A stretch of DNA of 21,544 bases. It comes from a virus. Each line of letters begins with the position of its first letter. Position 1 is the stretch's first letter. This document shows positions 6,454 through 18,606 of this stretch, one piece after another. The DNA lies in IMG/VR virus record IMGVR_UViG_3300006903_000171, positions 1-21,544 of that record; one strand, 5' to 3'. The notes under the pieces were generated by a model. It saw only the letters and a program-made list of their open reading frames with translations, made no database searches and was not told the DNA's origin. The translations under genes and the position numbers were made by a program.

Positions 6454-6660
6454 GTGGACGACGAAGTGAGATGCCCGCGCTGCTTCGGCTTTGGCTCGCT
6501 GTGGCGTGCGCGTCCGCATCCATGCGGGTTGTGCGAGGGGGAGCGGGTTGTTACGGAGAAGCGTGCATTGGAGTGGCGGCTGGGGCTTTTGAAATTAATT
6601 GGATTCGATCGGGCGACTGTGCTGCGGCATATAGAGCAGAAGGGGCAGCCGCCGTGGTAA
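6454..6660 (+). CDS. Mini zinc-knuckle protein, family 1, copy A
   Basis: This 68-residue protein has two cysteine knuckles, C7-P-R-C10 and C24-x-L-C27, separated by 13 residues and followed by V-V-x5-A-L-E-W-R-L. The first knuckle continues F-G-F-G and the second E-G, close to the CxxCxGxG units of the DnaJ zinc domain but with only two units and no J domain. GTG at 6454 is chosen because the N-terminus M-D-D-E-V-R-C aligns with copies B and C, and AGGAG lies upstream. Function is unknown; zinc binding is inferred from the four cysteines. Confidence 0.75.
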   Translation: MDDEVRCPRCFGFGSLWRARPHPCGLCEGERVVTEKRALEWRLGLLKLIGFDRATVLRHIEQKGQPPW

Positions 6661-6791
6661 TTTGCCAACACGTGTATACTGCTTGGACCACCGAGCCGCG
6701 CCCGCTCTTTACCACTAACCCCGACGATGTTATTTATGTACTCGTCCGGCGGTGCGCGCTCTGTGGTGTTGTGGACGAGGGGCGCGCTTGA
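6654..6791 (+). CDS. Very small Cys-containing protein
   Basis: This 45-residue frame starts at GTG 6654, seven bases inside the end of the upstream zinc-knuckle gene, with an AAGGGG-like site upstream. Its stop overlaps the next start as TTGA. It contains an early C-x-H pair, a central P-R-P-L-F-T-T-N-P-D-D segment, and a late C-A-L-C-G knuckle, so it might bind one metal ion. The coupling on both sides supports a real gene. I do not recognise a family. Confidence 0.5.
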   Translation: MVICQHVYTAWTTEPRPLFTTNPDDVIYVLVRRCALCGVVDEGRA

Positions 6792-7036
6792 TATACTTAC
6801 TCGCAGTCGTCTCCGCCGTGCTTACATCCGTCTTCTGGCGGGTGTATATTCGCGCGACCGACCGGAGTAACGCTAACCAGGCGTTCCTCGGCGACTACGG
6901 GCTGCTGCTTATTGGGACGCTGATTCAGCAGTTGTGGGTTACTCATGGGGATGACGTGCGGATACTGCTGCTGTACGATACGGTAGCGGCGGCGACAACA
7001 TGGGGGATTAATCGGTGGACGCGCGCGACGAAGTAA
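6788..7036 (+). CDS. Small membrane protein with TTG start
   Basis: This 82-residue protein has a hydrophobic N-terminal segment (about residues 2-20), a polar stretch, a second segment at about 36-50 and a weaker third at about 58-72. TTG at 6788 is chosen because GAGGGG lies six bases before it and the codon overlaps the previous stop. The stop TAA overlaps an ATG in the next gene. It is probably an inner-membrane protein with two or three spans. No family is recognised; superinfection exclusion or membrane anchoring would be typical roles but are not shown. Confidence 0.6.
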   Translation: MIYLLAVVSAVLTSVFWRVYIRATDRSNANQAFLGDYGLLLIGTLIQQLWVTHGDDVRILLLYDTVAAATTWGINRWTRATK

Positions 7037-7251
7037 TGAGGTGTCCGCGTTGTGTAGGACGGGGGAGTATTGTGGTTGCTGACCCGCAGGAGCGAGATTG
7101 CTCCCTTTGTGATGGAAAGGGGGAAGTTGCGGTTGTTGATGCACTTAACTGGCGGTTGTTGCATATACTGCCGGGGAATAGCCCGATTATGATTACCCCC
7201 CAGCAGGCGGAGGAAATACGGGTGAAACACTTCGGCCCGGACCCAGCGTAG
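7015..7251 (+). CDS. Mini zinc-knuckle protein, family 1, copy B
   Basis: This 78-residue member is the most DnaJ-like: C10-P-R-C13-V-G-R-G and C29-S-L-C32-D-G-K-G are two full CxxCxGxG units, followed by V-x4-A-L-N-W-R-L. GTG at 7015 is preferred over ATG at 7036 because it aligns with the M-D-x-E-V N-terminus of copies A and C and has GGGGG upstream, although the ATG overlaps the previous stop as TAATG. The C-terminal half is variable and ends in a charged helix. The stop overlaps the next GTG as TAGTG. Confidence 0.75.
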   Translation: MDARDEVMRCPRCVGRGSIVVADPQERDCSLCDGKGEVAVVDALNWRLLHILPGNSPIMITPQQAEEIRVKHFGPDPA

Positions 7252-7496
7252 TGGAAGAAGACGTGAAGTGCCCGCGCTGCTTCGGCTGGGGGTCGCTGTG
7301 GATAGCGGATGATAAAACGCCGTCAGAGAAGTGTGCGCTTTGTGAAGGACGTAGGCGGGTTTCAACCATGATTGCGGTGAAGTGGAGGCTTTTTGCCACT
7401 CTACCCACTAGCAATACCGATCATAGCAAGGCGTGGCTAAATAACACACGGACAAAGCTAAAAGAGGCGCTTGACAAAGAGGGGTTGGTTGATTAG
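7251..7496 (+). CDS. Mini zinc-knuckle protein, family 1, copy C
   Basis: This 81-residue protein has C7-P-R-C10-F-G-W-G and C28-A-L-C31-E-G, followed by V-x4-A-V-K-W-R-L. It is closest to copy A (shared F-G-(F/W)-G-S-L-W after the first knuckle), suggesting recent duplication. The start is GTG at 7251, coupled to the stop of copy B. The last codons overlap the promoter of the tRNA array: its stop TAG forms the first half of the -10 box. The C-terminal helix is Lys/Glu-rich. Confidence 0.75.
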   Translation: MEEDVKCPRCFGWGSLWIADDKTPSEKCALCEGRRRVSTMIAVKWRLFATLPTSNTDHSKAWLNNTRTKLKEALDKEGLVD

Positions 7497-7499
7497 GAT
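7471..7499 (+). promoter_or_regulatory. Promoter of the tRNA array
   Basis: TTGACA (7471-7476) and TAGGAT (7494-7499) are exactly 17 bases apart, the same two hexamers as the virion-operon promoter. The -10 box ends eight bases before the first tRNA (7508), so transcription would begin almost at the tRNA 5' end. It lies inside the end of the zinc-knuckle gene copy C. Confidence 0.7.
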
Positions 7500-7507
7500 T
7501 GGTGTCC

Positions 7508-7580
7508 CGGGATTCGGGCTCAATGGAGAGCCGCCGCGTTTGGGGCGCGGAGATGGCGCGTTCGATTCGCGCAATCCCGA
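7508..7580 (+). tRNA. tRNA-Pro(TGG)
   Basis: Full cloverleaf by eye: acceptor CGGGATT/AATCCCG, D stem GGCT/AGCC, anticodon stem CCGCG/CGCGG with loop TTTGGGG, T stem GCGCG/CGCGC with loop TTCGATT, discriminator A. No encoded CCA. First tRNA of the array. Confidence 0.92.
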
Positions 7581-7586
7581 CTTTGC

Positions 7587-7660
7587 CTATCGTTCGCCAA
7601 GTCGGCCTAAGGCACTCGTTTGCAAAACGAGCATCGGTGGTTCGAATCCACCACGATAGT
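7587..7660 (+). tRNA. tRNA-Cys(GCA)
   Basis: Acceptor CTATCGT/ACGATAG, anticodon stem CTCGT/ACGAG with loop TTGCAAA, T stem GGTGG/CCACC, discriminator T as expected for Cys. No encoded CCA. Confidence 0.92.
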
Positions 7661-7683
7661 CTGCCGTGCAAAGGCTGGATCAA

Positions 7684-7756
7684 CAGGTGCGTGGCCTAGT
7701 TGGCGAGGCATTGGCTTGTGACGCCAAAGAATTGGGTTCGAATCCCAACCACCTGA
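7684..7756 (+). tRNA. tRNA-His(GTG), slightly atypical
   Basis: Anticodon stem TTGGC/GCCAA with loop TTGTGAC and T stem TTGGG/CCCAA are clear. The acceptor CAGGTGC/CCACCTG has a C-C mismatch at its base. The base before position 1 is A and the discriminator is A, so the usual extra 5' G facing C73 of histidine tRNAs is not encoded. Confidence 0.82.
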
Positions 7757-7763
7757 TTACCAC

Positions 7764-7835
7764 GCCGCTTTCGTCCACTGGCTAGGACCGCAGGCTTTCA
7801 ACCTGCAGAAGCGAGATCGAAACTCGCAAGCGGTA
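7764..7835 (+). tRNA. tRNA-Glu(TTC)
   Basis: Acceptor GCCGCTT/AAGCGGT (G-U at the end pair), D stem GTCC/GGAC, anticodon stem GCAGG/CCTGC with loop CTTTCAA, T stem GCGAG/CTCGC with loop ATCGAAA, discriminator A. Confidence 0.9.
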
Positions 7836-7852
7836 TTGTCGCTGTCACATTT

Positions 7853-7923
7853 GTCGCTTTGGCGTAATGGTTGCGCACCAGTCTTCCAAACTGGCGATGC
7901 GAGTTCGATTCTCGCAAGCGACT
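7853..7923 (+). tRNA. tRNA-Gly(TCC)
   Basis: Acceptor GTCGCTT/AAGCGAC, anticodon stem CCAGT/ACTGG with loop CTTCCAA, T stem GCGAG/CTCGC, discriminator T. A 94-base spacer follows that has a small hairpin (7938-7953) and an AT-rich patch, but no gene. Confidence 0.9.
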
Positions 7924-8017
7924 CTGCGGTGTGTTCACGCTCCGTCCCGAGCGCCGTGTTTTGCCTATTGGATTTGAATTTATGGATATTGATTAATGCA
8001 TCGGGTTGGAGCAACTT

Positions 8018-8091
8018 GGCTCGTTAGCGTAGCGGTGCAACGCGCTCGGCCTACACCCGAGAGACCCTAGGTTCGAATCCTAGACGAGTCA
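8018..8091 (+). tRNA. tRNA-Val(TAC), C at position 33
   Basis: Acceptor GGCTCGT/ACGAGTC, D stem GCGT/ACGC, anticodon stem CTCGG/CCGAG with loop CCTACAC, T stem CTAGG/CCTAG, discriminator A. The base before the anticodon is C instead of the near-universal U33. Confidence 0.9.
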
Positions 8092-8107
8092 CTGCCCGAC
8101 GAGTAAC

Positions 8108-8179
8108 GCTCACTTGGCGTATTGGCTGCGCCCTCGACTTTTAATCGAGACGAAGGTGGTTCGATTCCATCAGTGAGCA
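8108..8179 (+). tRNA. tRNA-Lys(TTT)
   Basis: Acceptor GCTCACT/AGTGAGC, anticodon stem CTCGA/TCGAG with loop CTTTTAA, T stem GGTGG/CCATC (one G-U), discriminator A. Confidence 0.92.
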
Positions 8180-8200
8180 CTTCCCGCCGCGTGCGGGCAT

Positions 8201-8274
8201 AGCAGTGGAGCAGGCACGGTTCCTGCGCCAGCCTCATAAGCTGGACTCAGTGGGTTCGACTCCCACCACTGCCA
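8201..8274 (+). tRNA. tRNA-Met(CAT)
   Basis: Anticodon stem CCAGC/GCTGG with loop CTCATAA, T stem GTGGG/CCCAC. The acceptor has six pairs (GCAGTG/CACTGC) plus an A-C mismatch at 1-72, an initiator-like trait, but the anticodon stem lacks the three G-C pairs of initiators. A separate Ile(TAT) tRNA makes a lysidine-type Ile2 less likely. Confidence 0.85.
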
Positions 8275-8280
8275 TTACTC

Positions 8281-8353
8281 GCCGCCTTCGTCTATTCGGT
8301 TAGGATGCTGCGTTCTCAACGCAAGAAGATGGGTTCGAATCCCATAGGCGGTA
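8281..8353 (+). tRNA. tRNA-Glu(CTC)
   Basis: Acceptor GCCGCCT/AGGCGGT (G-U end pair), loop TTCTCAA between CTGCG and CGCAA (outer pair weak), T stem ATGGG/CCCAT, discriminator A. The D arm TTCGTCTA resembles bacterial Glu tRNAs. Confidence 0.87.
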
Positions 8354-8375
8354 CTACTCACTCGTCGAGGTTCGT

Positions 8376-8522
8376 ATGGGGTGGAGAGCACGTCTCCGTC
8401 GCGCGCCGAAGGGGCGGCGGAAGCTTGGAAGTAAGAAGCGGCATATGCAGTGGAAGCTGCGGCATCACCTCCGTGTTAAGCGAGACAAGTCCGCGACAAA
8501 GAAGCGGACGTATTCGATTTAG
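8376..8522 (+). CDS. Very basic 48-residue protein inside the tRNA array
   Basis: The frame starts at ATG 8376 with GAGG five bases upstream and ends at TAG 8522, six bases before tRNA-Leu(CAA). It has about 20 Arg and Lys residues plus several His, is spread with basic clusters (R-R-A-P-K-G-R-R-K, K-K-R-H, K-K-R-T), and has only a couple of acidic residues. Such composition points to nucleic-acid binding, like ribosomal-protein tails. It has no cysteines, unlike most of its neighbours. I know no family for it. The strong start site and clean fit between two tRNAs support a real gene. Confidence 0.6.
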   Translation: MGWRARLRRAPKGRRKLGSKKRHMQWKLRHHLRVKRDKSATKKRTYSI

Positions 8523-8528
8523 TCAACT

Positions 8529-8603
8529 GCTGCCTTAGCCCAACTGGGTAGAGGCATTGCGCTCAAACCGCAATTAGTGTAGGTTCGAATCCTACAGGCA
8601 GCA
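8529..8603 (+). tRNA. tRNA-Leu(CAA) with short variable loop
   Basis: Acceptor GCTGCCT/AGGCAGC, anticodon stem TTGCG/CGCAA with loop CTCAAAC, T stem GTAGG/CCTAC, discriminator A. The variable region is only five bases (8574-8578), whereas bacterial Leu tRNAs normally carry a long variable arm. Confidence 0.85.
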
Positions 8604-8606
8604 CTC

Positions 8607-8680
8607 GCCTACTTGGTGCAATTGGTAGACACACCAGTCTTAGAAACTGGCTCTTGGGGGTTCGAGTCCCTCAGTAGGCA
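8607..8680 (+). tRNA. tRNA-Leu(TAG) with short variable loop
   Basis: Acceptor GCCTACT/AGTAGGC, anticodon stem CCAGT/ACTGG with loop CTTAGAA, T stem GGGGG/CCCTC, discriminator A. The D arm is very Leu-like (AATTGGTAGAC), yet the variable region is five bases (8651-8655). Confidence 0.9.
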
Positions 8681-8682
8681 CT

Positions 8683-8755
8683 GCTCGCTTAGCTCAGTTG
8701 GAAGAGCAATCGCCTCTTAAGCGATAGCGCGTTGGTTCGACCCCAACAGCGAGCA
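8683..8755 (+). tRNA. tRNA-Lys(CTT)
   Basis: Acceptor GCTCGCT/AGCGAGC, anticodon stem ATCGC/GCGAT with loop CTCTTAA, T stem GTTGG/CCAAC, discriminator A. Begins two bases after the Leu(TAG) discriminator. Confidence 0.92.
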
Positions 8756-8762
8756 CTACACC

Positions 8763-8836
8763 CGGCGGCTGGCGCAATTGGTTAGCGCGCTCGCCTGATA
8801 CGCGAGAGGTTCTTGGTTCAACTCCAAGGCTGCCGA
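8763..8836 (+). tRNA. tRNA-Ile(GAT)
   Basis: Acceptor CGGCGGC/GCTGCCG (one G-U), anticodon stem CTCGC/GCGAG with loop CTGATAC, T stem CTTGG/CCAAG, discriminator A. Confidence 0.92.
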
Positions 8837-8846
8837 CTTTTTCTCT

Positions 8847-8972
8847 ATGACTACTTGTGTAATAAGCGGCAACTGCGTCCAATGCGGCGGCGCAGTTGTC
8901 GAGACCACTTGCGGAACGCCCTGCCCGCATTGTAAGTTTAAGTACCCGCTCGGCGATTGCAGCGAGCGGTAG
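8847..8972 (+). CDS. 41-residue cysteine-rich zinc-ribbon-like protein in the tRNA array
   Basis: The frame runs from ATG 8847, ten bases after tRNA-Ile(GAT), to TAG 8972, six bases before tRNA-Thr. It has seven cysteines: C4, then C10-x2-C13-G-G, C22, C26-P-H-C29 and C38. The two C-x2-C knuckles about 12 residues apart form a zinc-ribbon pattern. There is no Shine-Dalgarno; after tRNA 3' processing the mRNA would begin only ten bases before the ATG. It is distinct from the family 1 mini proteins because the C-terminal R-L block is missing. Confidence 0.6.
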   Translation: MTTCVISGNCVQCGGAVVETTCGTPCPHCKFKYPLGDCSER

Positions 8973-8978
8973 ACACAC

Positions 8979-9052
8979 GCCGGGTTAGCTCAGCTAGGGA
9001 GAGCGCGGAGCCTGTAACTCCGATGTCGGGGGTTCGATTCCCTCACTCGGCT
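8979..9052 (+). tRNA. tRNA-Thr(TGT), C at position 33
   Basis: Acceptor GCCGGGT/ACTCGGC, anticodon stem CGGAG/CTCCG with loop CCTGTAA, T stem GGGGG/CCCTC, discriminator T. Position 33 is C instead of U. Confidence 0.88.
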
Positions 9053-9071
9053 CTTGACCACCGAGGCGCGT

Positions 9072-9254
9072 ATGGTAACGTGTCCGCGTTGTAAAGGAAG
9101 TAGTAAGCCGTATGTGCGCCCGTGTAATTTGTGCAACAGTAAGCAAGAGGTTGATGATTTAGTTGGCGCAACGTATAGATTGGGGTTACCGCCGATTGCT
9201 CCATTCTCGAATACAGATAGAGCTTGGTGGGGCACGCAGTGGCTGGGTAAGTAA
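9072..9254 (+). CDS. Mini zinc-knuckle protein, family 1, copy D
   Basis: This 60-residue copy has C4-P-R-C7 and C18-N-L-C21, then V-D-D-L-V-x-A-T-Y-R-L. It is shorter before the first knuckle than copies A-C, and the glycines of the CxxCxGxG units are mostly lost. ATG at 9072 is preferred over TTG at 9054 because GAGG lies five bases before it and the TTG overlaps the trailer of tRNA-Thr. The stop lies one base before tRNA-Tyr. The C-terminus is aromatic (W-W-G-T-Q-W). Confidence 0.7.
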   Translation: MVTCPRCKGSSKPYVRPCNLCNSKQEVDDLVGATYRLGLPPIAPFSNTDRAWWGTQWLGK

Positions 9255-9255
9255 T

Positions 9256-9339
9256 GGTGGAGACGCCTCCTGGGTGAGGCACCTGACTGTAAATCAGGCG
9301 AGGCACGCCTCACTTCGGGTTCGACTCCCGGTTCCACCA
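9256..9339 (+). tRNA. tRNA-Tyr(GTA)
   Basis: 84 bases with acceptor GGTGGAG/TTCCACC, anticodon stem CCTGA/TCAGG with loop CTGTAAA, a long variable arm (GAGGC/GCCTC hairpin), T loop TTCGACT, discriminator A. Confidence 0.92.
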
Positions 9340-9340
9340 C

Positions 9341-9420
9341 TTCGCCCGACAAGCGGCCCGCGAGCGGGATTGTATACAAGCCGCTTCTACCGGAGTTAAC
9401 GCCGATTGTAGATAGGGCGA
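9341..9420 (+). ncRNA. Structured spacer 1 in the tRNA array, unassigned
   Basis: This 80-base spacer between tRNA-Tyr and tRNA-Ser(GCT) can close with TCGCCC (9342-9347) and GGGCGA (9415-9420). Inside it, AAGCGG/CCGCTT (9351-9356/9381-9386) encloses a CCCG-CGAG-CGGG hairpin and the palindrome TTGTATACAA. It has no T loop or anticodon arm, so it is not a tRNA. It may be a degenerate tRNA relic, a processing element or a small RNA. Confidence 0.35.
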
Positions 9421-9424
9421 TTTA

Positions 9425-9508
9425 GGAGCGTTGGCAGAGAGGCTGATCGCGCGCGGTTGCTAACCGCGTTTGCTTAACGCAACGGAGGTTCGAATCCTTC
9501 ACGCTCCG
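9425..9508 (+). tRNA. tRNA-Ser(GCT)
   Basis: 84 bases: acceptor GGAGCGT/ACGCTCC, anticodon stem CGCGG/CCGCG with loop TTGCTAA, long variable arm (TTGC/GCAA hairpin), T stem GGAGG/CCTTC, discriminator G as expected for Ser. Confidence 0.92.
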
Positions 9509-9518
9509 TGTGCCTATT

Positions 9519-9604
9519 GGAAGCTGTCCGGCTGGTCGAGGGCGCAGTCCTGAAAACTGTTGCGGGTTAAACACCCGTCAGGGGTTCGAGTCCCTTAGCT
9601 TCCG
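9519..9604 (+). tRNA. tRNA-Ser(TGA), C at position 33
   Basis: 86 bases: acceptor GGAAGCT/AGCTTCC, anticodon stem GCAGT/ACTGT with loop CCTGAAA (C33 instead of U33), long variable arm (CGGG/CCCG hairpin), T stem AGGGG/CCCTT, discriminator G. Confidence 0.92.
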
Positions 9605-9607
9605 TTT

Positions 9608-9681
9608 GCGATTGTGGCCTAGCGGTTTAAGGCACCCGCCTGTCACGCGGGGGAGCGCGGGTTCGAATCCCGCCAGTCGCG
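9608..9681 (+). tRNA. tRNA-Asp(GTC)
   Basis: Acceptor GCGATTG/CAGTCGC, anticodon stem CCCGC/GCGGG with loop CTGTCAC, T stem GCGGG/CCCGC, discriminator G as expected for Asp. Confidence 0.92.
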
Positions 9682-9684
9682 TAG

Positions 9685-9755
9685 CTCGTCATGCGTGCTG
9701 GAGTGCAACTGCGTTTCTACCGCAGCCGACGCGGGTTCGATTCCTGCTGGCGAGA
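9685..9755 (+). tRNA. tRNA-Arg(TCT)
   Basis: Acceptor CTCGTCA/TGGCGAG (one U-G), anticodon stem CTGCG/CGCAG with loop TTTCTAC, T stem GCGGG/CCTGC, discriminator A. Only one base separates it from the next tRNA. Confidence 0.88.
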
Positions 9756-9756
9756 C

Positions 9757-9830
9757 TGCCGCTTAGCTTACTCGGGTAAAGCAGGGAGCTTATATCTCTC
9801 AGATGGTGGGTTCAAATCCCACAGCGGCGA
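9757..9830 (+). tRNA. tRNA-Ile(TAT)
   Basis: Acceptor TGCCGCT/AGCGGCG (U-G end pair), D stem GCTT/AAGC, anticodon stem GGGAG/CTCTC with loop CTTATAT, T stem GTGGG/CCCAC, discriminator A. The TAT anticodon reads AUA directly; most bacteria use a lysidine-modified CAT tRNA for that codon. Confidence 0.88.
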
Positions 9831-9833
9831 TTG

Positions 9834-9906
9834 CGCTACTTAGCTCAAGTGGTAGAGCGGCGGTTTGAAGCACCGCGCGTGCGTGGTTCGATTCCACGAG
9901 TAGCGA
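9834..9906 (+). tRNA. tRNA-Phe(GAA)
   Basis: Acceptor CGCTACT/AGTAGCG, anticodon stem GCGGT/ACCGC with loop TTGAAGC, T stem CGTGG/CCACG, discriminator A. Confidence 0.92.
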
Positions 9907-9908
9907 CT

Positions 9909-9982
9909 GCCCGGTGGCTCCCTCAACGGTCTAGGCCGACCTAGAGCATCGCCTGCTCGACAGGATACAGGGGGCGAAAGGC
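9909..9982 (+). ncRNA. Structured spacer 2 in the tRNA array, unassigned
   Basis: This segment between tRNA-Phe and tRNA-Arg(ACG) pairs GCTCCCT (9917-9923) with AGGGGGC (9969-9975), and outside it GCC with GGC. Inside are a perfect TCTAGG-CCGA-CCTAGA hairpin (9930-9945) and a CCTG-CTCGA-CAGG hairpin (9952-9964). I could not fold it as a tRNA: no T arm and no 7-base anticodon loop on a sound stem. No ORF is present. Confidence 0.35.
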
Positions 9983-9987
9983 TGCAC

Positions 9988-10061
9988 TCGCCGGTAGCTC
10001 AGTAGGATAGAGCGCCTGACTACGAATCAGGAGGCGGTGGGTTCGATTCCCACCCGGCGGA
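9988..10061 (+). tRNA. tRNA-Arg(ACG)
   Basis: Acceptor TCGCCGG/CCGGCGG (U-G end pair), anticodon stem CCTGA/TCAGG with loop CTACGAA, T stem GTGGG/CCCAC, discriminator A. A34 would need host TadA to become inosine. Confidence 0.92.
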
Positions 10062-10064
10062 CTT

Positions 10065-10138
10065 CTCGCTATAGCTCATTAGGATAGAGCGTCACGTTCC
10101 GAACGTGGAGGCGGTTGGTTCAAATCCAGCTAGCGAGA
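10065..10138 (+). tRNA. tRNA-Arg(CCG)
   Basis: Acceptor CTCGCTA/TAGCGAG, anticodon stem TCACG/CGTGG with loop TTCCGAA, T stem GTTGG/CCAGC with loop TTCAAAT, discriminator A. Confidence 0.9.
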
Positions 10139-10140
10139 CT

Positions 10141-10419
10141 ATGACAAGCCATTCGAATCGGAAGCTGCTCAGTTGGCAACTAGTATTGGTCGAGGCGGCA
10201 GCCGCAATCGTCGCCGCTCGTCCCGCCGACTTCCCCGTCGCAGCCACATCGGCGAACCCGCCGGAGGTTGCGATGGATGTCGCGCAGCACGTTGTACTGC
10301 TGGCGAACGCGATGGCGGCACTAACCATCGCAGGACCAACGCGGAAACAACAGGAGGCGGCGAGTGGTCCCGTGCCCGCTGTGCCGGACGGTAGCGCAGC
10401 TACACCAGCATCTGGTTGA
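10141..10419 (+). CDS. Ala-rich helical hypothetical protein in the tRNA array
   Basis: This 92-residue frame starts at ATG 10141, two bases after the discriminator of tRNA-Arg(CCG), with no Shine-Dalgarno. Processing of the tRNA 3' end would leave a nearly leaderless mRNA beginning CTATG. The protein is rich in Ala and Val with two likely helices (L-V-L-V-E-A-A-A-A-I-V-A and D-V-A-Q-H-V-V-L-L-A-N-A) and a disordered Pro/Ala/Ser tail. It overlaps the next gene by 56 bases, which is unusual, so its last part may be constrained by that gene. I do not recognise it. Confidence 0.5.
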   Translation: MTSHSNRKLLSWQLVLVEAAAAIVAARPADFPVAATSANPPEVAMDVAQHVVLLANAMAALTIAGPTRKQQEAASGPVPAVPDGSAATPASG

Positions 10420-10585
10420 CTTTAGCTGCACGCTCTGCGGCAGTACGGGGGAGGTTGCGGACGATATTCCTCTTCGCCACCGCTTACGTCTCCCCCCGCT
10501 CGATGGCAGCCGCAAGTTTGAATGTTACATGAAGTTTGTGCAGGGCCACGAATACCGCTCGTGGTTCTACGAAGCGAAGCAGTAA
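10364..10585 (+). CDS. Mini zinc-knuckle protein, family 1, copy E
   Basis: This 73-residue copy has C4-P-L-C7 and C22-T-L-C25-G-S-T-G-E-V, then A-D-D-x4-R-H-R-L. Its start is GTG 10364 with a full AGGAGG six bases upstream, the best ribosome binding site in the array. The first knuckle is followed by R-T-V-A instead of Gly-rich turns, so only the second keeps the CxxCxGxG form. The C-terminus is aromatic and charged. The stop lies five bases before tRNA-Gln(CTG). Confidence 0.75.
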   Translation: MVPCPLCRTVAQLHQHLVDFSCTLCGSTGEVADDIPLRHRLRLPPLDGSRKFECYMKFVQGHEYRSWFYEAKQ

Positions 10586-10589
10586 GCAT

Positions 10590-10661
10590 TGCCCTGTCGT
10601 CTAATTGGCAGGACGCTTGTCTCTGACACAAGCGATCTTGGTTCGAATCCAAGTGGGGCAA
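10590..10661 (+). tRNA. tRNA-Gln(CTG)
   Basis: Acceptor TGCCCTG/TGGGGCA (two G-U pairs at the base), anticodon stem CTTGT/ACAAG with loop CTCTGAC, T stem CTTGG/CCAAG, discriminator A. Confidence 0.9.
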
Positions 10662-10663
10662 CT

Positions 10664-10734
10664 TCGCCGAGTTTGACACCGTAGTTTGAAGAGCAGGATA
10701 TGCGGCTGGGCCTTTGGTCCTGCTAACTCGGCGA
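10664..10734 (+). ncRNA. Structured spacer 3 in the tRNA array, unassigned
   Basis: A perfect ten-base terminal stem, TCGCCGAGTT (10664-10673) with its complement (10725-10734), closes the spacer between tRNA-Gln(CTG) and tRNA-Asn. A second perfect stem, AGCAGGA (10692-10698) with TCCTGCT (10718-10724), stacks directly on it. This is the strongest non-tRNA fold in the array. Size (71 bases) and coaxial stacking recall a tRNA, but anticodon and T loops are absent. Confidence 0.5.
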
Positions 10735-10738
10735 TCAA

Positions 10739-10811
10739 TGGGGTATAGCTCAACCGGCGGAGCGCGCGGCTGTTAACCGCGAGGTTGCAGGTTCGAAGCC
10801 TGCTGCCCCAG
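10739..10811 (+). tRNA. tRNA-Asn(GTT)
   Basis: Acceptor TGGGGTA/TGCCCCA, anticodon stem CGCGG/CCGCG with loop CTGTTAA, T stem GCAGG/CCTGC, discriminator G. Confidence 0.92.
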
Positions 10812-10823
10812 TTGTTACACAAC

Positions 10824-10895
10824 GGGCTGCTAGTGATATCGGGAGCACACTGCACTTGCACTGCAGTAGACAGGGTTCGACTCCCTGGCGGTCCA
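10824..10895 (+). tRNA. tRNA-Ala(TGC)
   Basis: Acceptor GGGCTGC/GCGGTCC (two G-U pairs, one of them G3-U70, the mirror site of the usual alanine determinant), anticodon stem CTGCA/TGCAG with loop CTTGCAC, T stem CAGGG/CCCTG, discriminator A. Confidence 0.9.
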
Positions 10896-10898
10896 CTT

Positions 10899-10971
10899 AG
10901 CCTACTAGTCGCAACGGCGCGACGCCCGTCTCCAAAACGGGAAATGCAAGGTTCGATCCCTTGGTGGGCTG
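10899..10971 (+). tRNA. tRNA-Trp(CCA)
   Basis: Acceptor AGCCTAC/GTGGGCT, anticodon stem CCCGT/ACGGG with loop CTCCAAA, T stem CAAGG/CCTTG, discriminator G as expected for Trp. Confidence 0.92.
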
Positions 10972-10996
10972 CTCTCGTCGCTTAACCAGCGACTAC

Positions 10997-11067
10997 TGGG
11001 GTTTCGTCCAGCGGCAGGACTGCTGACTTTGGATCAGCATACCTAGGTTCGAATCCTAGAGCCCCAA
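10997..11067 (+). tRNA. tRNA-Gln(TTG)
   Basis: Acceptor TGGGGTT/AGCCCCA, anticodon stem GCTGA/TCAGC with loop CTTTGGA, T stem CTAGG/CCTAG, discriminator A. The TGGGG 5' end is typical of Gln. Last tRNA of the array. Confidence 0.92.
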
Positions 11068-11089
11068 CTACCTCCCACTCGGCGGGCGC

Positions 11090-11245: not shown

Positions 11246-11303
11246 CAAGTCAAGAATTGGCGCTACGCATCCGCTTACGAATTAAACGCGCGTCAAACGA
11301 TCA

Positions 11304-12206: not shown

Positions 12207-12277
12207 GGCCACCACACGACGAACGCCGCGACGAAACCGAGCAGCGCCCAGATTGGAGAAACGCTACGGGTCCACAT
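12203..12277 (-). CDS. 24-residue single-span membrane peptide
   Basis: From ATG 12277 the frame gives a short polar start followed by an unbroken hydrophobic segment of about 17 residues (W-A-L-L-G-F-V-A-A-F-V-V-W-W), enough to cross a membrane. It overlaps the upstream zinc gene by 14 bases and its stop overlaps the next start as ATGA. The coupling on both sides argues that it is translated. No family is recognised. A chance hydrophobic frame cannot be excluded. Confidence 0.4.
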   Translation of the reverse strand: MWTRSVSPIWALLGFVAAFVVWWP

Positions 12278-12479
12278 GTTGCCAGCCTACCTTTCGCGTT
12301 TGGGTAAGTACAACGCTACGCCGCCGTTTTGGATCGCGGCGGCAACTTGTCCCGTAGCAGGGGACCGCGATACGTAACCGCACGAACAACGCGCGCAGAT
12401 ACGCAACGCGGCCCGTCCCGCCACAGATTGCGCACGTCGCGTACACTTCGCCACGCGCGCGGCATAGCTCGCAACGCAT
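12264..12479 (-). CDS. Mini zinc-knuckle protein, family 1, copy G
   Basis: This 71-residue copy has C3-E-L-C6 and C16-A-I-C19-G-G-T-G-R-V, then A-Y-L-R-A-L-F-V-R-L, and then an extra pair C41-x4-C46. The extra pair is shared with copies F and H but absent from A-E. ATG 12479 overlaps the stop of copy F as TAATG. The C-terminus is Arg-rich. It is the counterpart, in the MoxR operon, of the copies placed among the tRNA genes. Confidence 0.75.
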   Translation of the reverse strand: MRCELCRARGEVYATCAICGGTGRVAYLRALFVRLRIAVPCYGTSCRRDPKRRRSVVLTQTRKVGWQHVDP

Positions 12480-12709
12480 TATTTCACCACTAACGCATGC
12501 ATGCCTAACACGCGTCCATGAACGTCTACGACCCGCTTAATCAATGCGGGTTCGGTGCGCCTGCGACAGACAGGCCCGCGACACACAACGGGAATGCCAA
12601 GACGAAACTGCGTTGCGCGTTCTATCGTGATGCGACCAACGCCGCCGCATAGAGAGCAACCGCGCGCGGCAAGAACGCCGCGCGCGTGTCTGCTTAGTGG
12701 ACACTTCAC
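12479..12709 (-). CDS. Mini zinc-knuckle protein, family 1, copy F (one Cys lost)
   Basis: This 76-residue copy starts at GTG 12709, overlapping the DUF3150-like gene's stop as GTGA. The second knuckle C18-S-L-C21-G-G-V-G-R-I and the R-A-T-Q-F-R-L block are intact, but the first knuckle reads C3-P-L-S6, so its second cysteine is replaced by serine. The extra pair C43-x4-C48 is present and may supply the missing ligand. The C-terminus is a basic, Val-rich segment. Function unknown. Confidence 0.72.
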   Translation of the reverse strand: MKCPLSRHARGVLAARGCSLCGGVGRITIERATQFRLGIPVVCRGPVCRRRTEPALIKRVVDVHGRVLGMHALVVK

Positions 12710-13582: not shown

Positions 13583-13801
13583 TCACCTCCATGTTTGTGT
13601 AACGTAGGGAATGTGAAACGTTAGGCGGCGGTCAGCAGGCATTGTAGGATTGAAGGCAGTATACAAATCGCACGCCTCGCTCCACATCAACCCACAACCA
13701 TTAGTGCAAAATTCGCGCACGTCCGTTTCGCTCTTGAATTGATGGCCAAACACGCGACACTTGACGCGCGCGAGCGTTTCAGCTTTCGAGCGTTTCGGCA
13801 T
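13583..13801 (-). CDS. C-R-x-F-G-H mini protein, family 2, copy 1
   Basis: This 72-residue protein has C15-R-V-F-G-H20 followed by C32-x3-C36-G, a likely single zinc site (Cys, His, Cys, Cys). ATG 13801 is chosen over the longer frame because GAGG lies six bases upstream and the core then starts near residue 10, as in the two other copies at 17532 and 17752. The C-terminal part has F-N-P-T-M-P and a beta-like end, ending T-W-R. It overlaps the upstream gene by 23 bases. I know no family with this signature. Confidence 0.7.
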   Translation of the reverse strand: MPKRSKAETLARVKCRVFGHQFKSETDVREFCTNGCGLMWSEACDLYTAFNPTMPADRRLTFHIPYVTQTWR

Positions 13802-13973
13802 CGGTCGCCTCTCGCACGTAGCGCGCGGTATCGCGTGCGTCAGCCACTGCATTCATTAGCGCCGCGTAGCGCACGTCCGTATGACGTAACTGTAACTCGA
13901 CAGCTTCCCACACTTCAACGATGCGGTCGATGGTGTCGAGTAGGTCGGCGGTTGCTTCGCGTGATGTGAGCAT
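13779..13973 (-). CDS. Small helical protein after the VWA gene
   Basis: This 64-residue protein is acidic and almost wholly helical by pattern (heptad-like L-L-x-x-I-x-x-I-V-E-V-W-E-A-V), suggesting a coiled coil or helical hairpin. ATG 13973 overlaps the VWA gene's stop as TAATG, so its translation is coupled to the VWA protein. A partner or regulator of the ATPase-VWA complex is possible by position only. No family is recognised. Confidence 0.6.
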   Translation of the reverse strand: MLTSREATADLLDTIDRIVEVWEAVELQLRHTDVRYAALMNAVADARDTARYVREATDAETLES

Positions 13974-15178
13974 TAGTCGCCCCCGGTCATTTCGATAACC
14001 TCGCCCCACGGCGGCGCAAAACTGTCGTTATGCCCTTCGATCAACAGCCACAATACCGCGTAGTCGGGCGACTCTTGCTCGCGGGTGAAGTCACTGCAAT
14101 ACCCGTCCGTCAAGTAGATGACCGCGACTACATCTTCCTTCCGGTAGTGGTCAATCACTTCTACGTACGACGTACCACCACCGCCTTTAGGCCGACACTG
14201 CGCGACGTTCTCGATATCCTGTTCGTGCAATTCCGTATCACACCACGCGACGGTAAGCGTTGCGCGTCCCATGCTCGCCGCAGCTTGCAGACAGCCGTTA
14301 ACTTCCGCGACCGCCTTCTGTATCAACGCATCGGTCATGCTACCGCTTGTATCGACAGCAAAGATGATGCGCGCGACGCGCGGCATGCGCGCACTAGGCA
14401 AGTAGACATCGTGCGATGCCATGTAGCGGCGGTTGGGTTGTCTCCATGAATAGTCGTCGCGCGTTACGTCGCTAATGAAACGCGCGAGCAACTCCCGCCA
14501 CGGGAGAACGGGAGCAAGCACGTCGTCAAAGTGACGCTCCATGCCCGCCGGAAGTTTCCCCGCCGCCTTCGCTGCATTCAGCGCCCGCTTGACACGCAGC
14601 TTTGTATCGGCGATCGCCTCTTGCTTCGCTGCCCCGGTCAACGGCTTCCCCTGTTCATCGATCGCATCCATTACGCCGCCGCAACCGTAATCGGGGCCGG
14701 GCTTGCTGCATCCCGGGTTGTGCTGGCCGTTTTGCCCGCCGCATTGCGGACACGGCGGCGGTTGTTTGTACAACCGTTCGGGCGTGTCGTTAATCGGCGG
14801 GATACAACCTTGCGGCAATTTCAACCGCGCAAGCTCCGCGACCAAGTAGTTAACGACGTGATCGCACGCGATATTCCACGCCGACGGGTCGCGCCCCTCG
14901 CGCCGCAAGCAATGCAGGTTGGCGACGTGACAACCTTCGTGGCATAGCACGCCGAGCAACTCCGCGCGCGGGAGTTGCGTGACGAAAGATGGGTTGTAGT
15001 AGAGGCGTTTCCCATCGGTCGCCATCGTGGGAATGTCCCACGCGACTACGCGCTGTAGATGGAGGACAAGCGTTGCGTAGAACGGGAAGTCAAGGATAAG
15101 GTCGGTTACCGCGATTCCTAACGCGTGCTTTGCCTTATCCTCGAATGCTTTTATTTCTGCTTGTGTTGGCGCTTGCAT
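13973..15178 (-). CDS. VWA-like protein with metallopeptidase-like N-terminus
   Basis: This 401-residue protein combines an N-terminal putative metallopeptidase domain and a C-terminal VWA-like domain, as in DUF2201-type proteins that pair with MoxR ATPases. The N-terminal zinc motif is H80-E81-x2-H84 with a further H89. A Cys-rich insert follows (C143-P-Q-C146-G-G, C157, C166). The VWA metal site has D276-T-S278-G-S280, T336 in G-G-G-G-T and D358 in L-T-D-G, all key residues present. ATG 15178 starts one base after the ATPase stop. The pair probably acts as a machine in which the ATPase remodels a target recognised by the VWA domain; the phage target is unknown. Confidence 0.8.
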   Translation of the reverse strand: MQAPTQAEIKAFEDKAKHALGIAVTDLILDFPFYATLVLHLQRVVAWDIPTMATDGKRLYYNPSFVTQLPRAELLGVLCHEGCHVANLHCLRREGRDPSAWNIACDHVVNYLVAELARLKLPQGCIPPINDTPERLYKQPPPCPQCGGQNGQHNPGCSKPGPDYGCGGVMDAIDEQGKPLTGAAKQEAIADTKLRVKRALNAAKAAGKLPAGMERHFDDVLAPVLPWRELLARFISDVTRDDYSWRQPNRRYMASHDVYLPSARMPRVARIIFAVDTSGSMTDALIQKAVAEVNGCLQAAASMGRATLTVAWCDTELHEQDIENVAQCRPKGGGGTSYVEVIDHYRKEDVVAVIYLTDGYCSDFTREQESPDYAVLWLLIEGHNDSFAPPWGEVIEMTGGD

Positions 15179-15179
15179 G

Positions 15180-16202
15180 TTATACCCCCAACGCTTTCGC
15201 GTTCTTCGCTCCCCACTTCGTGAATGCCGCAACCCACTCGGGCGATTCAATCAGCTTCGCGTCACGCGCGGCAACGTCTTTGACGAATAGGACGTTGAAT
15301 TCGACGGGACAGCGGTCGAGGTATTCGAATGTCGGCGCGACGTTCTCCCGCTTGCATCCATGCGCCAGCGCCCCCATGAGCGCATACATCACGTCGGGCT
15401 TTTTGTCGGGGACGGGCGCAGACTTGGGCGATTTGTAAATCACTTCGCGGTCGGGCAGTTCAGTGAACAGTTGATAGAACGCGACAAACTCCGCCGCCGC
15501 TCCCTCGCCCACTTGCGCGCCAATCAATTCCGCGTTGATCATATTCGTGTCCAGCAGCGGTTGCACGCCTTCGAACCATGCGCGCGGCGTGGGGGAACGC
15601 TTCAGCGCCGCCGCCGCTGCCGGGTCGAATGCGTTGATAAGCTCACTACGGAAGCGCGCGAAGCTTGCGAGAATGGGCGAGCCGTTGTTTTGCAGCACGT
15701 GCGCTACCCAATCGTCTACGTCGAAATCGATATGGACGACGCCACCCGTGAAGCGGTCAAGCAGTGGGGACAGGATGCCATTGACGCCCGCGCGGTCACT
15801 ACTGCGATTCGTCGCTGCGATGAATGACACAGTATCGGAAATGCGGCGGTTGTTCACGCGGCGTGCGTGCAGCGCTTGCATCAGGGGCGCTTGCACGGAC
15901 AACGGCGTTTGTCCAAGGTCGTCTAGGAAAACGACGGTTGGCTTATCCGTCTCGCAAATCTCTTTCCATTCCGCGAATGGTAGGAAGTCGGCGGCGGTCC
16001 CGTCGGCGCTGCGGAATGGCAACCCCTTGATGTCGGTCGGATCGCTGATAACGCCGTGAATGATGCGTAGCGCGTAGCCGAGTTGTTCGGCCACCTGATG
16101 GACGATGCTTGTCTTACCAACACCGGGGGAAGCAACCGCGAGCGTAGGACGGCGCGCGGGAATGGTCACGCGCAGTAAGGATGCGAGTTGGGAGAGTTTC
16201 AT
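15180..16202 (-). CDS. MoxR-type AAA+ ATPase
   Basis: This 340-residue protein has the AAA+ set of motifs: Walker A S25-P-G-V-G-K-T-S32, Walker B V-F-L-D94-D95, sensor 1 A-A-T-N132, and an arginine finger candidate in P-L-L-D-R150-F. The order and the L-L-D-R-F pattern match the MoxR group, which are chaperone-like ATPases acting with VWA proteins. ATG 16202 is chosen over the upstream codon at 16253 because AAGGA lies upstream and the ATPase fold begins there. It is followed one base later by its VWA partner. No membrane segment is visible, so it acts in the cytoplasm. Confidence 0.88.
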   Translation of the reverse strand: MKLSQLASLLRVTIPARRPTLAVASPGVGKTSIVHQVAEQLGYALRIIHGVISDPTDIKGLPFRSADGTAADFLPFAEWKEICETDKPTVVFLDDLGQTPLSVQAPLMQALHARRVNNRRISDTVSFIAATNRSSDRAGVNGILSPLLDRFTGGVVHIDFDVDDWVAHVLQNNGSPILASFARFRSELINAFDPAAAAALKRSPTPRAWFEGVQPLLDTNMINAELIGAQVGEGAAAEFVAFYQLFTELPDREVIYKSPKSAPVPDKKPDVMYALMGALAHGCKRENVAPTFEYLDRCPVEFNVLFVKDVAARDAKLIESPEWVAAFTKWGAKNAKALGV

Positions 16203-16219
16203 AATGACGTTCCTTTCGG

Positions 16220-16702
16220 TTAAGCGTTGGGTATCCGCATCTGAAGCCGCCACGCGACTAGCGCAGCGGTTACGTCATCGTCACTAATCGGTTGTTCGCG
16301 CAACGTCTCTACTGCTGCGACCACCTGCTTGTAATTGTCGTCCGCTTCCCACGCGACGATAATGAGTTGTGTTATCTGCGACGGGTCTACGCGGTTTGCT
16401 ATCGCGCGATCCACTGCGCGTCGCATCACGCGCGCATGTTCATAGGCCGCTTCCTTGCGTGCCTCGCCCCGCGTGCGTTCGTAATGCTTCCGCATTGCCA
16501 GCCGTAGGTATCCTTCGCTGATGTGTGCGGCGAGGCTGTACGCGTTGCTGTGTGTAGTAGCGGGCAGTAAATCGCCCCGCTCGCGTAGTGCCTTGATAGT
16601 ACGGCGGGGGGAATACAAGACGACAACTTCGCTCCGCGATTCAATCACGTCGCGCGCTATCCGCATCAGCAACTCGTGTTGTGCTTGGCTTCGCTTCCGC
16701 AT
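16220..16702 (-). CDS. Hypothetical basic helical protein before the ATPase gene
   Basis: This 160-residue protein is basic in its first two thirds and acidic at the C-terminus (S-D-D-D-V). It is strongly helical, with E-V-V-V-L-Y-S-P-R-R as the only strand-like segment. ATG 16702 is chosen because GGAGG lies five bases upstream; it therefore overlaps the preceding zinc gene by 62 bases. It sits 17 bases before the MoxR ATPase gene and belongs to the same operon. No family is recognised. Confidence 0.6.
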   Translation of the reverse strand: MRKRSQAQHELLMRIARDVIESRSEVVVLYSPRRTIKALRERGDLLPATTHSNAYSLAAHISEGYLRLAMRKHYERTRGEARKEAAYEHARVMRRAVDRAIANRVDPSQITQLIIVAWEADDNYKQVVAAVETLREQPISDDDVTAALVAWRLQMRIPNA

Positions 16703-16829
16703 CGTCCCTCCATTCTTTGTGGCAGGCGGTACACAGCCTGACATTGGTCAGTGTTCCGTCATCGTTGATTGTGTGCGCGTAGTGTGCAGCGCCGTACACG
16801 CGACACTTGCTGCATTCGTAGCGGCGCAT
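16641..16829 (-). CDS. Small four-cysteine zinc protein at the head of the MoxR operon
   Basis: This 62-residue protein has C6-x2-C9 and C33-x2-C36 about 24 residues apart, with H16 and H19 between and R-V-Y-G after the first knuckle. The pattern (C-S-K-C, then R-L-C-T-A-C-H-K-E-W) resembles HNH-type or treble-clef zinc folds without the catalytic residues. ATG 16829 overlaps the upstream 33-residue gene's stop as TAATG. The C-terminal tail is charged and disordered. It is not a copy of family 1 because the R-L block is missing. Confidence 0.6.
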   Translation of the reverse strand: MRRYECSKCRVYGAAHYAHTINDDGTLTNVRLCTACHKEWRDDAEAKPSTTRVADADSARRD

Positions 16830-16930
16830 TAGTGCAACCGCACTTGCCGCCGTTTCGGTGGCTTGATGTAGACTGGCGCGGTCCACTTGTCGGCGAGCCG
16901 CTTCAACGCGGCGAGAGTTTGCGCGGTCAC
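16829..16930 (-). CDS. 33-residue basic peptide, first gene of the MoxR operon
   Basis: The frame starts at GTG 16930 with GGAGG five to six bases upstream and ends in TAATG coupling with the next gene. An in-frame ATG at 16942 lacks a ribosome binding site. The peptide has a short helix (A-L-K-R-L-A-D-K-W) and a basic end (K-P-P-K-R-R-Q-V-R-L-H). No family is recognised; the ribosome binding site and coupling are the evidence for translation. It could serve as a leader peptide for the operon. Confidence 0.5.
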   Translation of the reverse strand: MTAQTLAALKRLADKWTAPVYIKPPKRRQVRLH

Positions 16931-17192
16931 GTTTGCCTCCATGTTGTGGGGAATGGATCAACAGCAAGACAGTTGTTCGGTGCAGGTGGAATCCACTTGT
17001 TAGGCAGGTCAACGCGTTGTGTGCGATTGCCGCGAACGTGTCACGGGAGAAACCGCCGCGCGATTTACTGCCTAACGTTTCCTGTAGCTGGCGCGGTTGC
17101 GGTCATCGTGTGTGGACGATACACCGCGCGAGTCTCAGGTTTCGGCGTTGTCCCGCTTCGCTTCCGCTAACGGTCTCGCCACTTCGGTTGTA

Positions 17193-17215
17193 GTCGGTAG
17201 CGTTGCACTACCGAC
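17193..17215. promoter_or_regulatory. Palindrome next to divergent -10-like boxes (putative operator)
   Basis: GTCGGTAG (17193-17200) and its perfect complement (17208-17215) flank a seven-base centre. TATACT begins four bases to the right. The site would cover the -35 position of a plus-strand promoter, the usual place for a repressor or activator. No T-run follows, so it is not a terminator. Confidence 0.4.
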
Positions 17216-17354
17216 CCTTATACTAATTGAAAGAGAGAGGGGCGCGCAAGTGTTGTTAACGCGTTGGGGTGTATAAGGTTACGAGACTAAAAAACGTGCG
17301 TAGAAACCGCCGCGCCAGCAACTTTCATGCCGCACAACTTTCGTACCACTGCGC

Positions 17355-17394
17355 GGCGGCACGATTTTTGCCGCCTAGCAATTCCCGTGCCGCC
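17355..17394 (+). promoter_or_regulatory. Leader with two mutually exclusive hairpins
   Basis: GGCGGCAC (17355-17362) can pair either with TGCCGCC (17369-17375, seven pairs) or with GTGCCGCC (17387-17394, eight pairs). Alternative pairing of this type is seen in attenuators and riboswitch-like leaders. GC-richness raises the chance of coincidence. Confidence 0.25.
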
Positions 17395-17475
17395 GCCGCC
17401 GCCCGATCTTCGGTGTTTCTTCACCTTCGGTTTTCATTCGCCTCCTTCGGCAAACGTTCGGTGTTTCGTTACAAA

Positions 17476-17491
17476 TGCTGAATTTTCAGCA
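17476..17491 (+). terminator. Terminator-like hairpin in the leader of the plus operon
   Basis: TGCTGA and TCAGCA form a six-base stem (seven with the inner A-T) around a short loop, followed by CTTG and six T residues. It lies 40 bases before the first gene at 17532, where it could act as an attenuator or insulate the operon. The stem is short for a strong terminator. Confidence 0.35.
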
Positions 17492-17531
17492 CTTGCTTTT
17501 TTGCCTCCACACCGCGTATCCTGCGAGGAGC

Positions 17532-17762
17532 ATGGAATCGCCTGCCGATTTCCCCGCCAGCGAGGAGCGCACCGCCGCTCTTGTCCGTTGCCGCGTGTTT
17601 GGGCACGAATACTACTCGTCGCATATCAACTCGGATACTCAAGAGCCGTGTCATAGCTGCGGGCTGCCGTGCGAGGAGGCGAAGCGGCGCACGCATAGCA
17701 CGTTTCGTGGGCATAGATATCCAACGCGTGGTGACTGCTTCTACGTGCCATATGAGCGATGA
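17532..17762 (+). CDS. C-R-x-F-G-H mini protein, family 2, copy 2
   Basis: This 76-residue protein has C20-R-V-F-G-H25, then C40-x2-C43-G and a further C47. It shares the R-V-F-G-H block and the following C-x-x-(x)-C-G with the copy in the MoxR operon. ATG 17532 is chosen over 17475, which would place the leader hairpin in the gene; AGGAG precedes it but only one base away, so start efficiency may be low. The C-terminal F-Y-V-P-Y resembles the H-I-P-Y-V end of copy 1. It overlaps the next gene by 11 bases. Confidence 0.65.
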   Translation: MESPADFPASEERTAALVRCRVFGHEYYSSHINSDTQEPCHSCGLPCEEAKRRTHSTFRGHRYPTRGDCFYVPYER

Positions 17763-17964
17763 TGCTACCGCGCTTGACGTGCATTGCCGATTGTTTGGGC
17801 ACTTGTTTACGCGCGACACCAATCGGTTAGAGTTGTGCCGCAATGGCTGCAGAATGTCGTGGAAAGCGTTGGACAATCCACAAATGATTAAGAAGTGGCA
17901 TGCTGTGCTCGTCAATGATACTGACAGCCTAATCATCGAGGAAATGCATGGCCGGAGTGCGTAG
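17752..17964 (+). CDS. C-R-x-F-G-H mini protein, family 2, copy 3
   Basis: This 70-residue protein has C12-R-L-F-G-H17, then C29-x3-C33. As in copy 1, the second pair is C-x3-C within N-G-C and is followed by M-S-W (M-W-S in copy 1). ATG 17752 lies inside the end of copy 2 and gives the same spacing to the core as the other copies. The C-terminal half is helical, then acidic. Adjacent tandem copies suggest local duplication. Function unknown; one metal site per protein is inferred. Confidence 0.68.
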   Translation: MSDDATALDVHCRLFGHLFTRDTNRLELCRNGCRMSWKALDNPQMIKKWHAVLVNDTDSLIIEEMHGRSA

Positions 17965-18334
17965 AGGCGGGAAGAAGAATCGGAAGTGGGGGAGGCAGGC
18001 GGACTCGCCGAGCTTTAAGAAGTACGTGCGCCTACATCCGCCCGACGCGTCGTATAAAAAGATCAAGAAGCGGCCTGGTTACCAGCGCGCGAAGCAGTTG
18101 CGTAGTGTGCTGCATGAGCTTGCCGACGCGACGCGCGTCACCGCCGAAATGGAGGAACGCGTGCAGCCTGACGCACTTCATCGCAATCGTGTATACATTG
18201 AACATGCACAACGTGTGCGCGGGCTGCTGACTCGCTATGCGCGGCAGCATCGGATGAGCATGCGCGCGCCGCGTATCGCCGAGACAGGCAGATGCGGGAA
18301 GCGGGAGTGTGCGGTGTGTAAGAGGACAGTGTGA
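17948..18334 (+). CDS. Highly basic protein with C-terminal three-cysteine motif
   Basis: This 128-residue protein has a Lys/Arg-rich N-terminus (G-G-K-K-N-R-K-W-G-R), a central segment (Y-V-R-L-H-P-P-D-A-S) and K-K-I-K-K-R-P-G-Y, and a C-terminal C116-G-K-R-E-C121-A-V-C124. The charge suggests nucleic-acid binding; the cysteines may hold a metal together with a nearby His or with a partner. ATG 17948 overlaps copy 3 by 17 bases and has GAGGAA seven bases upstream. The stop overlaps the next ATG as TGATG. No family is recognised. Confidence 0.65.
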   Translation: MAGVRRGGKKNRKWGRQADSPSFKKYVRLHPPDASYKKIKKRPGYQRAKQLRSVLHELADATRVTAEMEERVQPDALHRNRVYIEHAQRVRGLLTRYARQHRMSMRAPRIAETGRCGKRECAVCKRTV

Positions 18335-18606
18335 TGAGTTATACTTCTGCTCACTACAGTATTCCTAACAGGTATGCTGTAAAATACGATGTGAAACCGC
18401 ATACGTCGGTTGCGTGTCCAATTTGTCGTTACCGGCCAAAGAAGATTGCGGTTAACTGTGCCATCTGCGGCGGCCTTCGTCGCATCCCGCCAGAACGCGG
18501 GGCGATGCTGAAATTAGGAATGGAGATACCATGCTGGTGCGGCTACTGCGCCCACAACCTGCTGGGAAAGATGCAAGTGTTCATAACCCTGAACACGACG
18601 CCTTGA
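18334..18606 (+). CDS. Mini zinc-knuckle protein, family 1, copy H
   Basis: This 90-residue copy has a longer N-terminus than the others, then C28-P-I-C31 and C42-A-I-C45-G-G, the R-G-A-M-L-K-L block, and a third set C67-x-C69-x2-C72. The third set links it to copies F and G of the MoxR operon (common pattern I-P-C or V-P-C followed by C). ATG 18334 overlaps the preceding stop; GAGG lies upstream. The stop overlaps the next gene as TGATG. It is the only copy in the recombination operon. Confidence 0.75.
   Translation: MSYTSAHYSIPNRYAVKYDVKPHTSVACPICRYRPKKIAVNCAICGGLRRIPPERGAMLKLGMEIPCWCGYCAHNLLGKMQVFITLNTTP

Follow-up and report, generated by a model that had tools for sequence, protein, structure and literature searches.

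The Bacillus anti-TRAP protein trimerises by its C-terminal helix and blocks RNA binding by TRAP. DnaJ combines a J domain with four CxxCxGxG repeats and two zincs, whereas the CCHC zinc knuckle follows the pattern C-x2-C-x4-H-x4-C. Here, eight small open reading frames (ORFs) with partial resemblance to the first two proteins were analysed in the IMG/VR record IMGVR_UViG_3300006903_000171. The entire record (21,544 bases), hereafter the window, derives from an uncultured, probably bacterial, virus. The eight ORFs, named copies A to H, constitute a lineage-specific paralogous family with a conserved four-cysteine (C4) site that is under protein-level selection. The family has partly arisen by tandem duplication, as illustrated by the pairs B/C and G/F, each overlapping by one base. 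A first-pass annotation made from the DNA letters had proposed such an eight-member family, and all eight frames, encoding 60 to 91 amino acids (aa), are indeed open at the places it gave:

6454 to 6660, plus strand: copy A, 68 aa, with the C4 site and the conserved tail, GAGGAG upstream of a GTG start
7015 to 7251, plus strand: copy B, 78 aa, with a loop between the cysteine pairs (codons 21, 26 and 27) unlike that of two sister contigs
7251 to 7496, plus strand: copy C, 81 aa, start overlapping the stop of B by 1 nucleotide (nt)
9072 to 9254, plus strand: copy D, ATG at 9072 behind GAGG, in-frame alternative TTG at 9054
10364 to 10585, plus strand: copy E, 73 aa, AGGAGG upstream
12264 to 12479, minus strand: copy F, 71 aa, basic and with an additional C-x4-C, overlapping the stop of G by 1 nt
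12479 to 12709, minus strand: copy G, 76 aa, basic and with an additional C-x4-C, second cysteine of the first pair replaced by Ser
18331 to 18606, plus strand: copy H, 91 aa, basic and with an additional C-x-C-x2-C, the weakest member

The shared site, C-x2-C-x(9-17)-C-x2-C, is of the zinc type, and the complete set of four cysteines is retained in seven of the eight copies. From the motif proposed in the first pass, C-x-(L/I)-C and the R-L or K-L ending occur in every copy, but C-P-x-C (six of eight; F has CELC and G has CPLS) and C-x-(L/I)-C-x-G (six of eight, with D and E as exceptions) do not extend to the whole family. The additional cysteine pair noted for F to H was found in all three. 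Describing A to E as having two knuckles is inexact, since four cysteines make up one C4 site, and the CCHC label 'zinc knuckle' was rejected because the pattern in the eight is C-x2-C...C-x2-C. Directly after the last zinc cysteine follows a tail that is ungapped in all copies, x5-[VI]-x4-[AGP]-x2-hydrophobic-[RK]-L, in which the residue before [RK]-L is mostly hydrophobic or aromatic. The net charge is near neutral in A to E (-3 to +4) and +9 to +12 in F to H.

A leave-one-out analysis, in which the profile is built from the other seven copies and all window ORFs, residue-shuffled in ten sets, serve as controls, recovers every member (E 9e-14 to 8e-5). The individual E values are 1.5e-13 (A), 5.3e-12 (B), 9.3e-14 (C), 1.1e-8 (D), 2e-8 (E), 2.8e-8 (F), 8.8e-8 (G) and 7.7e-5 (H), against 0.033 for the best shuffled ORF of all eight runs and 0.017 for the best real non-member. 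When left out, H scores 20.8 bits with the seven-member profile, compared to 23.5 bits for a generic knuckle of related contig G006 with the full profile; the core of H is 38-39% identical to F and G. Because the members were initially chosen by their cysteine pattern, the tail was tested separately. Its alignment score is 455, versus -636 (standard deviation 56) for shuffles, with none of 20,000 shuffles reaching it. A tail-only profile outscores all non-members for just four of the eight copies (A, E, F and G) and does not find H. The tail pattern, which was derived from the eight and so matches them by construction, occurs in eight window ORFs, compared to a mean of 0.01 and a maximum of 1 in 100 Markov shuffles. 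Identity among the copies at codon positions 1, 2 and 3 is 0.42, 0.54 and 0.32, respectively, with about 0.27 expected by composition. Since positions 1 and 2 lie well above position 3, the copies are old at the DNA level and conserved as protein.

Purine-rich ribosome sites are present at A, E and H. Besides its ATG at 18334, H has a GTG at 18331 in the same frame, and it lies upstream of a PD-(D/E)XK nuclease gene. No Shine-Dalgarno sequence was seen for C, and given its 1-nt overlap with B, it is probably translationally coupled to B. Several copies are located in or beside one large feature:

7508 to 11068, plus strand: array of 28 tRNA genes (24 of them listed by Rfam), gene order largely kept in relatives

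C ends 11 bases before the next tRNA gene. D and E are located between tRNA genes of the same strand, the stop codon of D being separated by 1 base from tRNA-Tyr and that of E by 4 bases from tRNA-Gln(ctg). The alternative start of D is the first base after tRNA-Thr, and from this TTG the tRNA-Thr/tRNA-Tyr gap would be filled except for one base. The array does not include F, G or H. Position is the sole tie to tRNA, and a role in RNA, translation or protein folding, as hinted at in the first pass, is unproven.

A capsid search yielded 12 loci; the capsid alignment found no match in genome contigs. Two of these loci (L006 and L015) belong to the same species, being 99.8% identical to the window, and carry A to G, with their alignments stopping before H. 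The family profile matches in three of the 12 records, namely the two sister contigs, with seven copies in each, and G006, with a single hit at E 2e-5. A script scan adds one weak ORF (E 0.004) next to the last tRNA in each of G002 and G003, and the anti-TRAP profile adds one more knuckle ORF in G002. These ORF scans covered the whole contigs of G002, G004, G006, G007 and G012 and the fetched locus of G003, G005, G008, G009 and G011; window pieces (L001-L005) were excluded, and L018 is part of sister contig G010. The tail pattern was found in none of the 10 related contigs. G002, G004, G007 and G012 carry 28 to 33 tRNAs in nearly the same order as the window, and in G006 (L041-L043) just three array tRNAs were found, with other genes in between. 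Six related contigs spanning the same tRNA region contain no comparable set and no tail-motif match; three of them hold one or two generic knuckles. Since relatives with a nearly identical tRNA block lack the set, it looks like a local expansion, in line with the amplification first proposed.

Seven reference phages gave no family match at E 1, while the same query matches in the sister contigs. With these phages and the six related contigs, the check for copies in other tRNA-rich phages, suggested in the first pass, came out negative. Scans of viral contigs with C by itself and with the sub-alignments A/B/C and F/G/H retrieved the same species only. Searching phages by tblastn with B gave 26 records at E <=1, each hit at one place; the best E was 0.1, and 21 of the 26 were Bacteroides. 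With C and with F there was no match. The window DNA itself has no match among 50,697 phage records. The family is confined to a single phage species. Among the open-licence papers listed, none was seen to report a family of this kind, which is weak evidence for there being none in print. The gene family is real and narrowly distributed, interesting as a set and ordinary in its parts.

No copy reaches the cut-off of a curated family. Against solved structures, the eight-member profile matches DnaJ best (1exk, E 2e-4), supporting the half-DnaJ resemblance pointed out in the first pass, followed by anti-TRAP (2bx9, E 0.0036). Copy B matches the NCBIfam anti-TRAP (RtpA) model over residues 8-49 (E 2.8e-5). 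Like anti-TRAP (PF15777, NF058604), the copies are small, have a single (here predicted) zinc and share C-x2-C, loop, C-x2-C-x-G. They differ in occurring eightfold in one phage, in the R-L helix signature and in the extra cysteines of F to H. With the DnaJ central zinc domain (PF00684), one half agrees (C-x2-C...C-x2-C-x-G), with a best score of 20.6 of the 32.7 bits required. Unlike DnaJ, however, the copies are stand-alone proteins with a single C4 site followed by a conserved tail, and no J domain was found in the eight ORFs (60-91 aa, two cysteine pairs). A DnaJ-like cysteine stretch also links four of the eight copies to the phage family TIGR02642 (best E 0.0015), but of the 267 model positions the cysteine region alone matches, far below the 101.4-bit cut-off.

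AlphaFold2 models were obtained for C (9 sequences) and F (8 sequences), with a mean predicted local distance difference test score (pLDDT) of 65.6 and 76.4, respectively. The C model has strands at 4-6 and 36-38 and a helix at 39-48, the second strand corresponding to +5 to +7 and the helix to +8 onward from the last zinc cysteine. Counted from this cysteine, both models show a strand or an extended residue at +5 and a helix that starts at +8. For anti-TRAP, PMC11255114 gives strands 9-11 and 34-36 and a helix 38-50. Its last zinc cysteine is residue 29 by alignment with the family profile, so that strand and helix lie as far behind it as in the C model. The modest-confidence C model thus appears to reproduce the strand-zinc-strand-helix register of anti-TRAP. 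A Foldseek search with C returned five matches, all of them anti-TRAP chains and none significant (E 2.5-9.9), and the F model gave nothing at E 0.001 against the PDB and viral models.

As a tentative explanation, and the one we favour, the family might consist of anti-TRAP-like accessory phage binders in which the helix for self-association is conserved and the target loop varies. Each copy is predicted to bind one zinc, for which four cysteines suffice, and to fold as strand, zinc turn and strand, followed by a helix bearing the A-x2-hydrophobic-R-L signature. By analogy with anti-TRAP, the zinc site would be the scaffold, the helix would mediate self-association and the loop between the cysteine pairs would pick the target. 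During infection, host proteins or RNAs, and perhaps those of the phage too, may be bound and thus blocked, or else redirected, and the copies would have diverged toward different targets. The near-neutral A to E would mainly bind proteins and the basic F to H may touch nucleic acid, their extra cysteine pair possibly forming a second site between two chains.

Variation between strains fits a loop under changing demands. The window differs from one sister at 6 positions in 11,663 bases, five of which fall within 20 bases (7075-7094) in the loop of B. They alter three codons, each non-synonymously (V21->R, E26->D, R27->Q), and the second sister contig has identical changes. Such clustering was reached in 0 of 200,000 simulations, which assume independent changes and lose their validity if a single event brought in the whole patch. 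A second cluster, 22 differences to the sister within 300 bases (1599-1895), is an apparent recombination patch. Copying of the alternative loop from elsewhere was considered and rejected, as no donor was seen in the window (best 17 of 29 bases) or in 10 related contigs (<=20 of 29).

Several observations weigh against the anti-TRAP-like explanation. The anti-TRAP cut-offs are missed as well (best 18 of 32 bits for Pfam and 24.1 of 65 for NCBIfam). The anti-TRAP profile matches in 13 of 14 control genomes, in three of them over the cut-off, and gives a generic knuckle of G002 19.9 bits, more than the window copies (13.6). Because it matches controls and generic knuckles, this profile alone cannot tell anti-TRAP from any C4 knuckle, and membership of the anti-TRAP family is not shown by these scores. 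In addition, both models are only of modest confidence, F matches no fold, and VIA-align gives Z >=2 for neither C nor F. The amphipathicity of the helix is uneven (Kyte-Doolittle moment 0.17 to 1.05), and the differences in the B loop may represent one recombined patch, comparable to the 1599-1895 cluster.

Possible, but rather doubtful, is a function as translational regulators similar to bacteriophage Mu Com, in which each C4 finger would bind a hairpin in phage mRNA or a tRNA precursor, either opening or shielding this hairpin. Com, as described in PMC6483171, is likewise a tiny phage protein (62 aa) with one N-terminal CCCC finger, which binds mom mRNA. The basic nature of F to H and the location of D and E between same-strand tRNA genes would suit this role. 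However, A to E are near neutral, and the only copy to match the Com PHROG is A, insignificantly (E 0.11). Moreover, the tail of Com is reported there as disordered, while that of the family is conserved and predicted to be helical.

Other sequences in the window are multiplied as well. A second mini cysteine family has three copies (13586-13852, minus strand; 17475-17762 and 17758-17964, plus strand) with the motif C-R-(V/L)-F-G-H...C-x2-(C/G). Leave-one-out recovers them at E 4e-13, 4e-4 and 1e-5 (best shuffle 0.01), with no match of weight in Pfam. Three ORFs resemble HNH endonucleases as judged by eye (3545-4060 and 5467-5853, minus strand; 19607-19954, plus strand), and HNH-like ORFs likewise occupy gaps of the tRNA array in relative G012. 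Together with the absence of the set from close relatives and the cysteine lost in G, this multiplication could indicate selfish or near-neutral duplicates, with small ORFs having been copied into spacer DNA that tolerates them near tRNA genes and functioning weakly or not at all. This is unlikely given the conservation of codon positions 1 and 2 well above 3, the ribosome sites and 1-nt overlaps, and the seven of eight copies retaining all four cysteines.

Half-DnaJ mimics of co-chaperones, interfering with host DnaK/DnaJ or engaging unfolded proteins, are still harder to credit. The DnaJ zinc domain is the top solved-structure match, and the sole two bacterial loci retrieved from genome contigs with A/B/C are true DnaJ genes, matching over a CPQC...CGEC stretch. 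On the other hand, these two loci lack the tail signature, and the copies have no J domain, a single C4 site and scores below the Pfam cut-off. Counter-defence, in which the copies and the phage tRNAs would act together against anticodon nucleases of the host or other defences that cut tRNA, is very unlikely. It would agree with the copies in and beside the 28-gene array, with the strain difference in the B loop and with the role against tRNA-cutting defences proposed for phage tRNAs in PMC10264068. However, the array link is one of placement only, the copies are missing from relatives that have the array, and no PADLOC match of weight was obtained (best E 0.0019). Most improbable is the combined proposal of diversifying anti-TRAP-like zinc adaptors with an oligomerising helix and a fast-changing loop, expressed from tRNA-array gaps, that would shield the tRNAs of the phage or neutralise host defences that cut tRNA.

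Two further small ORFs are located in the array. A very basic 48-aa ORF (8376-8522, plus strand) in the 174-base gap from tRNA-Glu(ctc) to tRNA-Leu(caa) may be due to chance or conceal a missed tRNA. A 41-aa ORF with CVQC...TCGTPCPHC (8847-8972, plus strand) occupies the tRNA-Ile/tRNA-Thr gap and has a look-alike in G004 (27585-27881, minus strand; CPRCG...TCGVPCVYC). Besides the PD-(D/E)XK nuclease, which found no match in phages, the window encodes a major head protein and a Sak4-like protein, the latter without a match in viral contigs. At 13973-16253 (minus strand), a DUF2201 metallopeptidase/VWA gene, whose relatives occur in N4 and in 644 further phage records, adjoins an AAA (MoxR-like) gene; neither has a match in the 10 related contigs searched.

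Tiny cysteine-rich ORFs with no assigned role are numerous in phages, and an eight-copy set from a single species, with a fixed tail and a variable loop, offers a natural series for finding their partners. If the comparison to anti-TRAP, the explanation favoured here, is true, the mode of action of a bacterial regulator would extend to phages.

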